Source: Candidatus Mcinerneyibacteriota bacterium (GTDB lineage Bacteria; AUK180; JAQVHJ01). Taken from it: a stretch of 7,546 nt of DNA. Each line of letters begins with the position of its first letter. The stretch's first letter is position 1. The stretch spans positions 1 to 7,546 of the forward strand of contig DAOVMD010000133.1 of assembly GCA_030630935.1 (NCBI GenBank). The letters are read 5' to 3'. This document shows positions 3,199-7,137 of this stretch, one piece after another. Under the pieces are notes generated by a model, which was not told where the DNA came from, did not search any database, and worked only from the letters and a program-made list of their open reading frames with translations. A program made the position numbers and the translations under genes.

Positions 3199-4131
3199 AT
3201 GATAAAGATTTTTAAAACAATTAACAGTAAAATTGAAGAGATTAAATCACCTGAAGATAACTGCTGGATTAATATTACAAACTCTAATAGAGAAGAAGTT
3301 AATGAATTAAGCAGCCGTTTAGTGATTCCGCCTGAATTCCTTATATACCCTTTAGATATACATGAACGAGCGCGAATTGAGATTGATGAAGGTTGTATGT
3401 TGATTATTCTCAGAGTTCCGGTAAAGGAGCCTGGTGATGCTGAGATCCCATTTATAACAGGGACATTAGGTATAATATTAAAGGATAAGATAATGATCAC
3501 TATGTTATCCCAATCCAATACATTATTTAATGATTTCCTGAATAATAAGATTAAGAATTTCGATATTAAGAACAGGATAAATTTCCTTCTTCAGATATTT
3601 TATCAGATTTCATTTCATTATCTCAACGATCTGAAGGAAATAAATATAATGACCAATTCAATTGAGAAAGAGCTTCATAAGTCAATGAAGAACGAAGAAT
3701 TGATCAAGTTACTAAACATAGAGAAGAGTTTAGTTTATTTCACAACATCATTAAAAGAGAATGAAATTATGATGGAACGTTTCCAGAGGATTCAGCTATA
3801 TAACCTTGATGAAGAAGCCACAGATCTCCTGGAAGATGTAATCATTGAAAATAAACAGGCTATTGAGATGGCTAATATTTACAGTAATATCCTAAGTGGA
3901 ATGATGGATGCATTTGCATCTGTGATATCGAATAACCTGAATGTGGTTATGAAGATCCTAACTTCAATCACGATTATTTTAATGCTCCCGACTCTTGTTG
4001 CAAGTATTTATGGTATGAATATTGATTTACCATTACAGCATCATCCCTTTGCATTTCCTATAACGATGGGTATCTCTTTGATCTGTGCGTTAATAGCAAT
4101 TTTAATATTTTTAAAACGTGATATGTTTTAA
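3199..4131 (+). CDS. corA: CorA-family divalent metal ion transporter
   Basis: CorA proteins form membrane pentamers that move Mg2+ (some members Co2+, Ni2+ or Zn2+). The 310-residue length is normal. Residues 1 to about 245 form the cytoplasmic domain, ending in the long helix through SVISNNLNVVMKILTSIT, a very typical family stretch. The first membrane segment is about 250-270 and closes with the YGMN signature (GMN at 272-274), the selectivity-filter motif. The second is about 287-305, followed by a short basic tail KRDMF in the cytoplasm. The loop after GMN reads IDLPLQHHPFAF, not the classical acidic MPEL form, placing it in a CorA-like subgroup whose exact ion cannot be read from sequence. 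The start is the first ATG; no strong Shine-Dalgarno precedes it. It has its own promoter and the next gene has another, so it is probably a single transcription unit. Confidence 0.93.
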   Translation: MIKIFKTINSKIEEIKSPEDNCWINITNSNREEVNELSSRLVIPPEFLIYPLDIHERARIEIDEGCMLIILRVPVKEPGDAEIPFITGTLGIILKDKIMITMLSQSNTLFNDFLNNKIKNFDIKNRINFLLQIFYQISFHYLNDLKEINIMTNSIEKELHKSMKNEELIKLLNIEKSLVYFTTSLKENEIMMERFQRIQLYNLDEEATDLLEDVIIENKQAIEMANIYSNILSGMMDAFASVISNNLNVVMKILTSITIILMLPTLVASIYGMNIDLPLQHHPFAFPITMGISLICALIAILIFLKRDMF

Positions 4132-4203: not shown

Positions 4204-4461
4204 ATGGGTAAATTTGAGAAATATAAAAAAGACAGCACGGGACCTTCCAAATTAGAGAAGTATAAAAAGTCCCATGGTTCAACTCTTAAAACTGCTGAGA
4301 AGAAATCCATCTCAACACTTAAGCAAAGAACCAGGCCTTTAAAGAAGAAAAAAAAGGCTGAAGGTGATTCGACCTTACCCGGAACCATTCTTATTATAGT
4401 TTTGGGAGCGATAACAGTTGGGGTCTGGGTTGGGGTTTTAGTAAAGTTATTCTCATCATAA
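4204..4461 (+). CDS. small basic single-pass membrane protein, unknown function
   Basis: I do not recognise this 85-residue protein. Residues 1-53 are strongly basic and hydrophilic, with two related units, KFEKYKKDSTGPS (3-15) and KLEKYKKSHGST (16-27), then a lysine run RPLKKKKK (44-51). Residues about 60-82, TILIIVLGAITVGVWVGVLV and the next few residues, form one hydrophobic helix near the C-terminus. By the positive-inside rule the basic part should be cytoplasmic, as in a tail-anchored protein. The start is fixed by AGGAGGT at 4190-4196. It is the first gene after a promoter and ends 15 nt before the MBL-HhH gene, so the two are likely co-transcribed. The basic tail could touch nucleic acid or acidic lipid, but that is only charge-based inference. 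Confidence 0.8.
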   Translation: MGKFEKYKKDSTGPSKLEKYKKSHGSTLKTAEKKSISTLKQRTRPLKKKKKAEGDSTLPGTILIIVLGAITVGVWVGVLVKLFSS

Positions 4462-4476
4462 ACGGAAGTAATAATT

Positions 4477-6093
4477 ATGAAAAAAAACATTAAACTACTT
4501 TTTATTCTTTTATCTTTTATTATCCTGATACCTGTTTTTACATTTGCAGGTGAAGTTGATACGAAAGCAAAACTAATGAAGGTTACTTTTATTGACGTGA
4601 AACAGGGTGATTCCATTTTGATTGAGACTCCAAATGGAAAAACGATTCTAATAGATGGTGGTGCACCTCAATATTATGACCCTGAAAAGAATATTTATTA
4701 TTCACACTTTGATGCAGGACGTGACAGGATACTTCCATTATTAAAAGAAAGAGGGATTTCAAGAATTGATTATATGATCGGGACTCATCCTGATGCAGAT
4801 CATATTGGCGGTTTAGTTTATGTGATGAAACATTTTCCGGTCGGAGCAGTTTATTATACAGGTAAAACGCATACCACAAGGATTTTTAAAGAATTCCTTA
4901 CGACAATTAAAGATAAAAATATAGATTACCATATTACCCGGGAAGGTGATATCCTGAAATTTGATAAAGCGCTTTTATGCCAGGTTCTTCACCCACGAGA
5001 ACAGGATATGTCATTGAATTCCAATGATACATCTATCGTAATAAAATTAGTTTATCGTGAAGTTTCTTTTATGTTAACAGGAGATGCTGAATCGGATGTT
5101 GAGAAGAGAGAAATTAGGGATTATGGTAAACAATTAAAATCCACTTTTTTAAAGGCAGGTCACCATGGTTCAAAATCTTCTACCTGTCTTGAATATTTAA
5201 AAATTGTTCATCCTGAAGTTATCATTTTATGTTGCGGTTTCAAAAATAAATACGGTTTTCCAAACCCCGAGACAATTGAAAGAGTTGCCCGGTTAGATTA
5301 CTATCCACAGTTCTATAGAACGGATGAACAGGGACATATTACTGTTACAACCGATGGTAAAACTTACAGCATCGAAACATCCAAGGGTGATGGGAAAGAA
5401 TATTTAATGTATAAAGTAAATATTAATAGGGCTTCCGCATCTGATATGGGCAGGATACTTGAGTTAACTGAAGACCAGGCAAATGAAATTGTAAAATACC
5501 GAAAGAAAAACGGTGAGTTCAAAACGATTGATGATGTTGGAAAAGTTTTTTCAGATACTTCGGTATTCAACAAAATTAAGGAAAAAATTACTATTTCAAA
5601 GAGCAAAGTAATTACAGACTCAGATAACTTAACATATTCAAATATTAAAAAAGTAAATATAAACACTGCATCCAAAGATGAACTGATTAAATTACGCAAA
5701 GTTGGTCCTGTGACAGCTCAAAATATAATTGATTATCGTTCTCAACATGGACCATTTAAACGTATTGAAGATATAAAAAACGTTACTAGAATAGGTGAGA
5801 AGACTTTTCAGAGTCTAAGACCCTACATCACTGTTGGTGAAAACGATGAAGTTAATACTGATGACTCAAGTTCAAATTCGGAATCGTCAAGTTCCATAAC
5901 AAAAATAAATTTAAACACTGCAACTCAGGAAGAACTTGAAACTGTACCCGGGATAGGTCCTAAGACCGCTCAAAACATAATAAATTATCGTACTCAACAT
6001 GGTCCATTTAAATCGGTTGATGAACTGGATAATGTAACAAGGATAGGTCCAAAAACCCTGGAAAAAATAGCACCCTACTTTAAAGTTGAGTAA
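4477..6093 (+). CDS. secreted ComEC-like metallo-beta-lactamase-fold hydrolase fused to three ComEA-like HhH units
   Basis: The protein has 538 residues. Residues 1-24 are a signal peptide ending TFA. Residues about 34-300 are an MBL-fold domain of the ComEC/Rec2 type: FIDVKQGDSILIE, ILIDGG (57-62), the metal motif THPDADH (103-109), NDTSIVIKL, LTGDAE (200-205) and HHGSKSS (229-235). In ComEC this domain acts as a nuclease on incoming DNA; nuclease activity here is inferred. Three helix-hairpin-helix units follow at about 313-373, 392-454 and 476-537. Units 2 and 3 carry the hairpins KVGPVTAQNII and GIGPKTAQNII of ComEA-type DNA-binding domains; unit 1 (LELTEDQANEIVKYR) lacks GxG. A Ser/Asp-rich linker (462-473) separates units 2 and 3. 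No ComEC channel segment is present. The ATG at 4477 is preceded by GGAAG at 8 nt. Alternatives to a DNA-processing role are a non-nuclease phosphodiesterase or a general nutrient-scavenging DNase. Confidence 0.92.
   Translation: MKKNIKLLFILLSFIILIPVFTFAGEVDTKAKLMKVTFIDVKQGDSILIETPNGKTILIDGGAPQYYDPEKNIYYSHFDAGRDRILPLLKERGISRIDYMIGTHPDADHIGGLVYVMKHFPVGAVYYTGKTHTTRIFKEFLTTIKDKNIDYHITREGDILKFDKALLCQVLHPREQDMSLNSNDTSIVIKLVYREVSFMLTGDAESDVEKREIRDYGKQLKSTFLKAGHHGSKSSTCLEYLKIVHPEVIILCCGFKNKYGFPNPETIERVARLDYYPQFYRTDEQGHITVTTDGKTYSIETSKGDGKEYLMYKVNINRASASDMGRILELTEDQANEIVKYRKKNGEFKTIDDVGKVFSDTSVFNKIKEKITISKSKVITDSDNLTYSNIKKVNINTASKDELIKLRKVGPVTAQNIIDYRSQHGPFKRIEDIKNVTRIGEKTFQSLRPYITVGENDEVNTDDSSSNSESSSSITKINLNTATQEELETVPGIGPKTAQNIINYRTQHGPFKSVDELDNVTRIGPKTLEKIAPYFKVE
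5650..6084 (+). repeat. intragenic tandem duplication encoding HhH units 2 and 3
   Basis: Two similar segments lie 252 nt (84 codons) apart inside the MBL-HhH gene. The best-conserved 45 nt, at 5716-5760 and 5968-6012, match at 40 of 45 bases, and both encode TAQNII-(D/N)-YR-(S/T)-QHGPFK. Upstream parts encode VNINTAS and LNLNTAT-like stretches, and downstream parts encode NVTRIG. Similarity at the DNA level points to a fairly recent duplication or gene conversion. Confidence 0.75.
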
Positions 6094-6117: not shown

Positions 6118-7137
6118 ATGAAAGATTTAATTGATCAAATTGTAAATTCTGCATGTAAAGAAATAAAAATTATTAATGACTCGAGAAGTTTAGAAGAGTT
6201 TAGAGTGAAATTCCTGGGAAAGAAATCAGAACTTCAGAATCTTTTAAAAAAGATCGGAACTCTTTCAAAAGAAGAGAAACCGGTAATTGGTCAGGCACTG
6301 AATAAAGCAAAAAAAACTATTTACGAACTTTTTAATAATCTAAAAAATGGACTTGAAATTTCTGAACAGGATTCAAAATTAAAGAGCGAACTTTTTGATT
6401 TAACTTTACCCGGTGTGAAAGTACCTATAGGACATAAACATATAATTTCAAAGTCAATCGAAGAGATATGTGATATCTTTATTAATTTAGGTTTTGAAGT
6501 GAAGATTGGTCCTGAACTCGAGACAGATTTCCATAATTTTGAAGCATTAAACATTCCTGCCGATCACCCGGCACGGGAAGATTTTGATTCATTCTATTCA
6601 GAATCAGGGCAACTCCTAAGAACTCATACTTCACCCGTTCAGATTAGAGCAATGCTTAATGAACAACCGCCAATTGCAATGGTTTGCCCGGGGAAATGCT
6701 ATAGACGTGATTCAATTGATGCAACTCATTATCCCATGTTCCACCAGGTTGAAGGTCTTTTAGTGGATGAAAACATTACTCTCGGTGATTTAAAAGGAGT
6801 ACTTGAAAGTTTCTGCCACAGAATGTTCGGTTCTCATACTGAATTAAGATTTAGACCCAGCTTCTTTCCTTTTACCGAACCAAGCGCAGAAGTTGATATA
6901 TCCTGTGTCTTTTGTGGTGGTAAAGGATGTAATATCTGTAAAAATTCAGGATGGATTGAAATTTTAGGTGCCGGTATGGTAGACCCCGAAGTCTTTAAAG
7001 CTGTAAATTATGATTCAGAAAAATGGACAGGGTTCGCATTTGGGATGGGTGTTGAAAGAGTCGCAATGCTAAAATATGATATTAACGATATTAGGTTCTT
7101 CTACGAAAATGAGATCGAATTCCTGAAACAATTTTAA
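6118..7137 (+). CDS. pheS: phenylalanine--tRNA ligase alpha subunit
   Basis: PheS is the catalytic subunit of the (alpha-beta)2 phenylalanyl-tRNA synthetase, which charges tRNA-Phe in the cytoplasm. The 339-residue length is normal. Residues 1 to about 85 form the N-terminal coiled-coil arm that contacts tRNA. The class II catalytic core follows, with motifs in order: LPGVKVPIG (97-105), LLRTHTSPVQIR (166-177), CYRRDSIDATHYPMFHQVEG (194-213, motif 2), FRPSFFPFTEPSAEVD (245-260) and GFAFGMGVERVAMLKY (305-320, motif 3). Four cysteines in CVFCGGKGCNICK (263, 266, 271, 274) look like the zinc-ribbon-like insert found in many bacterial PheS proteins. It begins 24 nt after the MBL-HhH gene with a weak AGG site, so it may depend on the promoter at 4146. 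No pheT start follows within the 409 nt to the window edge, which is unusual. Confidence 0.97.
   Translation: MKDLIDQIVNSACKEIKIINDSRSLEEFRVKFLGKKSELQNLLKKIGTLSKEEKPVIGQALNKAKKTIYELFNNLKNGLEISEQDSKLKSELFDLTLPGVKVPIGHKHIISKSIEEICDIFINLGFEVKIGPELETDFHNFEALNIPADHPAREDFDSFYSESGQLLRTHTSPVQIRAMLNEQPPIAMVCPGKCYRRDSIDATHYPMFHQVEGLLVDENITLGDLKGVLESFCHRMFGSHTELRFRPSFFPFTEPSAEVDISCVFCGGKGCNICKNSGWIEILGAGMVDPEVFKAVNYDSEKWTGFAFGMGVERVAMLKYDINDIRFFYENEIEFLKQF

Follow-up and report, generated by a model that had tools for sequence, protein, structure and literature searches.

A predicted exported ComEC-type metallo-beta-lactamase fused to ComEA-like domains as a candidate nuclease subunit for a nuclease-dead ComEC

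The window (the whole stretch of DNA analyzed, 7,546 nucleotides) is one whole contig of a draft genome (G000; 3.16 Mb, 80% complete) of Candidatus Mcinerneyibacteriota bacterium. Positions 4477 to 6093 of the plus strand form one complete open reading frame (ORF) encoding 538 amino acids. The features considered here are as follows.

3199..4131, plus strand: CorA-type transporter, upstream neighbor also present in G001 (Pfam); not thought to be part of the system
4204..4461, plus strand: small basic protein, 85 amino acids, probable partner or anchor; upstream of the fusion in 7/7 phylum genomes
4477..6093, plus strand: fusion of a signal peptide, a metallo-beta-lactamase (MBL) domain and three HhH units, 538 amino acids (Pfam, NCBIfam, AlphaFold2 model, match to 9ic4)
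4477..4548, plus strand: Sec-type signal peptide, residues 1 to 24 (by eye: KK, 18 hydrophobic residues, cleavage between TFA and GE)
4561..5385, plus strand: ComEC-type MBL domain, residues 29 to 303 (Pfam, sequence and structure matches)
4786..4803, plus strand: HPDADH metal-binding motif, equivalent to H598-x-D600-x-D602-H603 of Moorella ComEC (alignment, PMC12455585)
5077..5085, plus strand: TGD motif, counterpart of the metal ligand D700 (alignment)
5161..5172, plus strand: HHGS motif, equivalents of H725 and S728 (alignment)
5416..5598, plus strand: HhH unit 1, ComEA-like, hairpin glycines lost (Pfam; model helices 321 to 370)
5653..5838, plus strand: HhH unit 2, hairpin intact, basic, pI 10 (Pfam, sequence)
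5902..6090, plus strand: HhH unit 3, hairpin intact (Pfam, sequence)
6118..7137, plus strand: pheS, conserved neighbor downstream of the fusion, also in another family of the class (Pfam, NCBIfam)

The window also contains a serpin gene at 1241 to 2602 (PF00079, 395 bits), conserved in the same stretch of G001; serpins are unusual in bacteria.

The full-length protein consists, in this order, of a signal peptide, a ComEC-type MBL domain, and three ComEA-type HhH domains. Its N terminus, MKKNIKLLFILLSFIILIPVFTFA followed by GE, is predicted by eye to be a Sec-type signal peptide; direct reading of this N terminus revealed no lipobox, and a signal peptide of the same type is found in 7/7 fusion orthologues. 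In Pfam, Lactamase_B matched residues 40 to 252 (E 9e-16) and HHH_3 matched three stretches (E 7e-65), while the same scan gave no match to the Competence channel domain (PF03772) or to the SLBB domain. When compared to NCBIfam models, the tail scored 196.5 bits against comEA (TIGR01259, cut-off 152), a value that sums the three units. The score of the protein against ComEC_Rec2 (TIGR00361), 135 bits, is below the whole-protein cut-off of 190 because the channel is absent. The motifs HPDADH (residues 104 to 109), TGD (201 to 203), and HHGS (229 to 232) are in place, and every catalytic residue of a ComEC-type MBL is present. An earlier sequence-only reading had described a signal peptide, these three motifs, and no ComEC channel, as borne out by inspection by eye, Pfam, and NCBIfam. 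Its description of three ComEA-like HhH units agrees with the three HHH_3 stretches but is slightly generous, because unit 1 (residues 314 to 374) has lost its G-h-G hairpin glycines (ELTEDQAN); the hairpin is kept in units 2 (KVGPVTA) and 3 (GIGPKTA).

Among sequences with solved structures, the fusion is closest to ComEC proteins and to the nuclease domain of Moorella ComEC on its own. An AlphaFold2 model of the fusion (pLDDT 87) matched the latter (9ic4) with a Z of 36.9 and an rmsd of 1.9 over 260/266 residues at 36% identity, followed by the phosphorylcholine esterase Pce (Z 28, 19% identity) and RNase J (Z 19). The fusion is therefore a ComEC-type MBL domain by both residues and fold; it is neither a ComEC, having no channel, nor a plain ComEA. 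A contig scan with the full protein matched only two Lachnospiraceae ComECs.

The host phylum was sampled by seven genomes. The fusion MBL is found in all of them with an unchanged catalytic signature, HDDHDHHS. Besides the fusion in the window, three others are complete, each with three or four strong HhH domains, and contig edges cut off the remaining ones. The architecture that the sequence-only reading had proposed to look for elsewhere is thus found, whole or in the part held on the contigs, in 7/7 genomes of the phylum, and since these genomes share both architecture and signature, chance is excluded. In G003, which belongs to the other family, pheS likewise follows the fusion gene.

The small upstream gene starts at the ATG at 4204, preceded by an AGGAGG ribosome site, and encodes two K[FL]EKYKK repeats followed by a C-terminal transmembrane segment. 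In 7/7 phylum genomes, a protein of 74 to 85 amino acids that combines K[FY]DKYKK repeats with a transmembrane helix at its C terminus is encoded a few bases 5′ of the fusion. The earlier suggestion that this protein is a partner therefore holds up, and it is probably a strictly conserved one. That it acts as a membrane tether is our guess from the strict synteny and from a weak likeness to the FxxYRR-transmembrane start of stand-alone MBLs; its best non-self match to the N-terminal anchors of these MBLs (E 0.025) is no more than suggestive of homology.

Live MBL paralogues without HhH domains, namely, the C90 lipoprotein and MBL-FN3 proteins, are present in the same phylum genomes. An exported, lipoprotein-like ComEC-type MBL of 400 amino acids adjoins uvrC (L032:3835-5046 in G000 and L035:4758-5954 in G001), and loci L054 to L057 of the phylum encode MBL proteins of 600 to 720 amino acids with FN3-like repeats and a sorting-domain-like C terminus. 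Excision of the fusion MBL from the phylum’s own ComEC was considered and rejected, as the MBL tree (with weak deep branches) places the fusions with stand-alone MBLs and outside the main group of ComEC MBLs.

The sequence-only reading had also pointed to the host’s competence genes. Secretins and T2SSE-type (PilB/PilT-type) ATPases are encoded in 7/7 phylum genomes and full DprA in 6/7; the secretin and T2SSE-type ATPase families serve other pili and secretion too. A full-length ComEC is likewise present, but its MBL domain appears dead. ComEC was found in 6/7 phylum genomes, in each case as the only Competence-domain protein of the genome, and is about 965 amino acids long where complete. 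The HxDxDH and HHGS motifs are lost in 6/6 of these proteins (e.g., NLNKEN, DLSDEN, DYSTDN, and YKGE). In the C-terminal domain of the G000 ComEC, TNLNKEN replaces THPDADH, PYKGE replaces HHGS, and the four HxDxDH positions read NNEN; the D602 position is still D in the ComECs of G003, G005, and G006. The Pfam matches of the G000 protein are DUF4131 and Competence only, with no match to Lactamase_B, and its MBL domain keeps the fold (model pLDDT 90, Z of 33.0 to 9ic4). In Moorella ComEC, nuclease activity all but disappears with alanine at H598, D602, H603, or D700, and D600A decreases it about five-fold, while matching mutants of Legionella lose transformation (PMC12455585). Going by these effects, the phylum ComECs should lack nuclease activity, given that the residues at the H598, D600, and H603 positions are gone, and, judging by its lost motifs, the MBL domain of the host ComEC is CATALYTICALLY dead. 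Since the only channel of the phylum has a dead MBL and the fusion a live one, the cutting step appears to have been moved into a separate protein. The fusion gene adjoins pheS and not comEC, so the two are linked in this phylum by co-occurrence only.

Upstream of ComEC lies a gene for a PorV-type outer-membrane barrel of 492 amino acids with two ComEA-type HhH domains (PorV_fam 97.8 bits, comEA 168.7 bits). Between the two is a gene for a 663–amino acid protein with one HhH near the N terminus and a long, possibly barrel-forming remainder. This arrangement is seen at L036:775-7328 (G001), L047:2389-8919 (G004), and L049:2891-9406 (G003) and is divided between L033 and L034 in G000. Both HhH proteins are possible outer-membrane DNA receptors.

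To follow ComECs of this long type, a profile of 17 long ComECs, including that of G000, was run over 337 genomes; its members came from genomes picked for having stand-alone MBLs. Near-complete long ComECs scored at least 370 bits (21 genomes, 12 families), and canonical ComECs scored at most 305 bits. A contig-end fragment in G275 scored 308 bits, and the G000 ComEC, itself a profile member, scored 1238 bits over its full length. The HxDxDH motif was absent from every long-ComEC member tested. A live stand-alone MBL, its active site complete, was found in 20/21 long-ComEC genomes, compared to a stand-alone MBL match of equal strength, with active sites read in part, in about 19/316 other genomes (Fisher about 1e-20, computed with near-identical counts and ignoring phylogeny). 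In the exception, G071, the stand-alone MBL has a clean in-frame deletion across the motif.

Long ComEC, HhH, and live MBL genes form an operon, often with one more HhH gene, in G182, G317, G035, G083, G124, and G238 and in most long-ComEC genomes of family f120 of the G124 phylum. In G024, G171, G219, and G078, none of which belongs to the phylum of the window, the MBL within the long-ComEC operon is dead and a live copy is located elsewhere. Most of the long-ComEC genomes checked also encode a second, canonical Competence protein without an MBL domain; in G083 and G238, the canonical ComEC that accompanies the long one keeps its MBL intact. Further MBL-HhH fusions occur in G100 and G024. The one in G100 (L092:3764-5497) is independent and has an OB fold (PF01336) between HhH units; the same genome contains an MBL-HhH-MBL-HhH-HhH-HhH-HhH-ComEC cluster (L091:3865-12397), where the ComEC MBL is intact. 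ComEC is split into two adjacent ORFs in G212 (L158:4684-7117) and G297 (L159:4316-6813), which encode a channel of 527 and 536 amino acids and a live MBL of 292 and 296 amino acids, respectively.

The G124 phylum (39 genomes), in which the long-ComEC profile and an MBL query were run separately, provides a natural experiment. In family f120, the complete stand-alone MBLs of genomes with long ComEC were catalytically intact in 12/12 cases (a 13th MBL is truncated). In genomes without detectable long ComEC, the stand-alone MBL persists, as does its HhH neighbor wherever the contig reaches (L245 to L254), and the active site is broken in 9/9 cases (Fisher 3e-6, phylogeny ignored). The nine are broken in seven different ways, HHDHDNHS, HHDDDDHA, HHDHDGHS, HHNHDGHR, NHNNNNHN, HHENDNHS, and SHDHEKHS. 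On the HhH and MBL tree, the pattern corresponds to three changes, at least two of which are forced by well-supported branches. As a control, another secreted MBL paralogue was intact in those of the nine genomes where it was read; the two proteins of this kind that were scanned have FN3-type domains. In G337, where long ComEC is present, the MBL query found no MBL. The ~850–amino acid MBL frames of the phylum were considered as canonical ComECs and rejected: the two that were read are of a signal peptide–MBL–FN3 type without a Competence domain, and these frames were used solely as an intact-MBL control.

Overall, we think it probable that ComEC is split in these bacteria and that the fusion is its catalytic subunit, a nuclease acting in trans with a ComEA-like DNA grip of its own. 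The long-type ComEC retains the OB fold and the channel together with an MBL-fold domain that has lost its metal ligands, and the exported fusion would supply the MBL nuclease in trans, presumably from the periplasm and docked to ComEC. Much as ComEA does, the HhH tail would keep incoming double-stranded DNA close to the active site, and one strand would be degraded by the fusion MBL while the other enters ComEC during transformation; the small upstream membrane protein may tether the fusion at the inner membrane. Artificial fusion of the ComEA DNA-binding domain to the ComEC MBL raised nuclease activity, and there is a precedent for cutting in trans in pneumococcus, where EndA does so for a ComEC with a probably inactive MBL (PMC12455585). 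The sequence-only reading had offered a secreted DNase or an uptake accessory that trims DNA. The accessory is the better of these suggestions, but since the host has a full-length ComEC with a dead nuclease, the fusion looks like a replacement nuclease rather than an extra trimmer. Counting against the split-ComEC reading are the location of the fusion gene beside pheS, the live HhH-free MBLs of the phylum genomes, the dead operon MBLs of G024, G171, G219, and G078, the deletion in G071, the negative MBL query in G337, the intact canonical ComECs of G083 and G238, the use of counts that ignore phylogeny, and the choice of genomes for the long-ComEC profile.

Alternatively, the fusion could be a DNase for scavenging or biofilms that acts independently of ComEC, secreted from the cell or kept in the periplasm, its HhH domains gripping extracellular DNA that is degraded for phosphorus or nucleotides. 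The cleavable signal peptide, the lack of an anchor on the fusion itself, and the location of the gene away from comEC would suit such an enzyme. Haloarchaeal surface nucleases carry stand-alone COG2333 MBL domains, and their smaller homologue Hvo_1477, in which the MBL is missing, is required for growth on DNA (PMC3929857). However, both the presence and the intactness of the MBL follow the long nuclease-dead ComEC across phyla, operons combine MBL, HhH, and long ComEC, and loss of the channel would give a free DNase no need to decay. We therefore regard a DNase of this kind as unlikely. A lack of any relation between the dead MBL of ComEC and the live stand-alone one, with decay of the ComEC MBL being common and the fusion an independently kept paralogue, is less likely still. 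Many stand-alone ComEC-type MBLs do occur in genomes without long ComEC, and Lactamase_B is found on only 52% of ComEC proteins (PMC6299819). Coincidental decay is at odds with the distribution of live MBLs over the 21 and 316 genomes and with the f120 active sites, which were lost at least twice. Least probable is a non-nuclease enzyme hydrolyzing another phosphodiester, as does Pce, the second-best fold match, with HhH domains, which can bind proteins and the first of which has no hairpin, as a protein scaffold: the ComEC nuclease is far closer in sequence and fold, units 2 and 3 are ComEA-like with intact hairpins, and the genomic partners are DNA-uptake genes.

The split-ComEC reading can be extended, more tentatively, to a model that may hold, in which long ComEC, a stand-alone MBL, and a ComEA-like HhH protein form a distinct, widespread DNA-uptake machine with the nuclease off the channel. 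The dead MBL of the channel would serve as a platform for docking or for guiding the strand, and a live enzyme would be kept only as long as the channel exists. In the phylum of the window, this machine would be the only one built around ComEC, its enzyme and DNA receptor sharing one chain. The model bears on how one of the strands taken up comes to be degraded and on whether the ComEC nuclease needs to be attached to the channel; many ComECs have no MBL or a dead one. To our knowledge, the partner nuclease of such ComECs is known for few, such as that served by EndA. The fusion and the stand-alone MBLs are concrete, genome-encoded candidate partner nucleases in many lineages, and the natural experiment, in which the active site is kept with the channel and lost without it, renders the in-trans model testable.

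Stand-alone ComEC-type MBL domains are already known (PMC3929857); in the literature covered by our search, we found no account of them as partners of ComEC, including a nuclease-dead lineage of it, or of ComEA. The fusion shares a common fold and the HxDxDH, TGD, and HHGS motifs with the BLACT domain of ComEC/Rec2 (COG2333; Moorella 9ic4, full-length 30bt) but has neither the OB fold nor the channel and is extended by a signal peptide at one end and HhH domains at the other. Its HhH domains exceed the cut-off for ComEA (HHH_3, TIGR01259); unlike ComEA, it has three units instead of one, the first of them degenerate, joined to an enzyme, and no SLBB or oligomerization domain (SLBB before HhH is a trait of the Gram-positive type of ComEA). 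The haloarchaeal thermonuclease-MBL surface proteins (Hvo_1477 group 2; PMC3929857) also carry an exported COG2333 MBL outside ComEC, but they are archaeal, with a thermonuclease as the partner domain and no HhH link shown. EndA of Streptococcus pneumoniae serves in trans a ComEC with a probably inactive MBL, as proposed for the fusion; it is, however, an unrelated, membrane-bound nuclease. The ComEA-MBP-BLACT laboratory fusion (PMC12455585) likewise joins the ComEA DNA-binding domain and the ComEC nuclease on one chain. That construct is man-made, with HhH on the N-terminal side and an MBP spacer, whereas the fusion in the window, with C-terminal HhH domains, is a natural counterpart of this artificial proof of principle.
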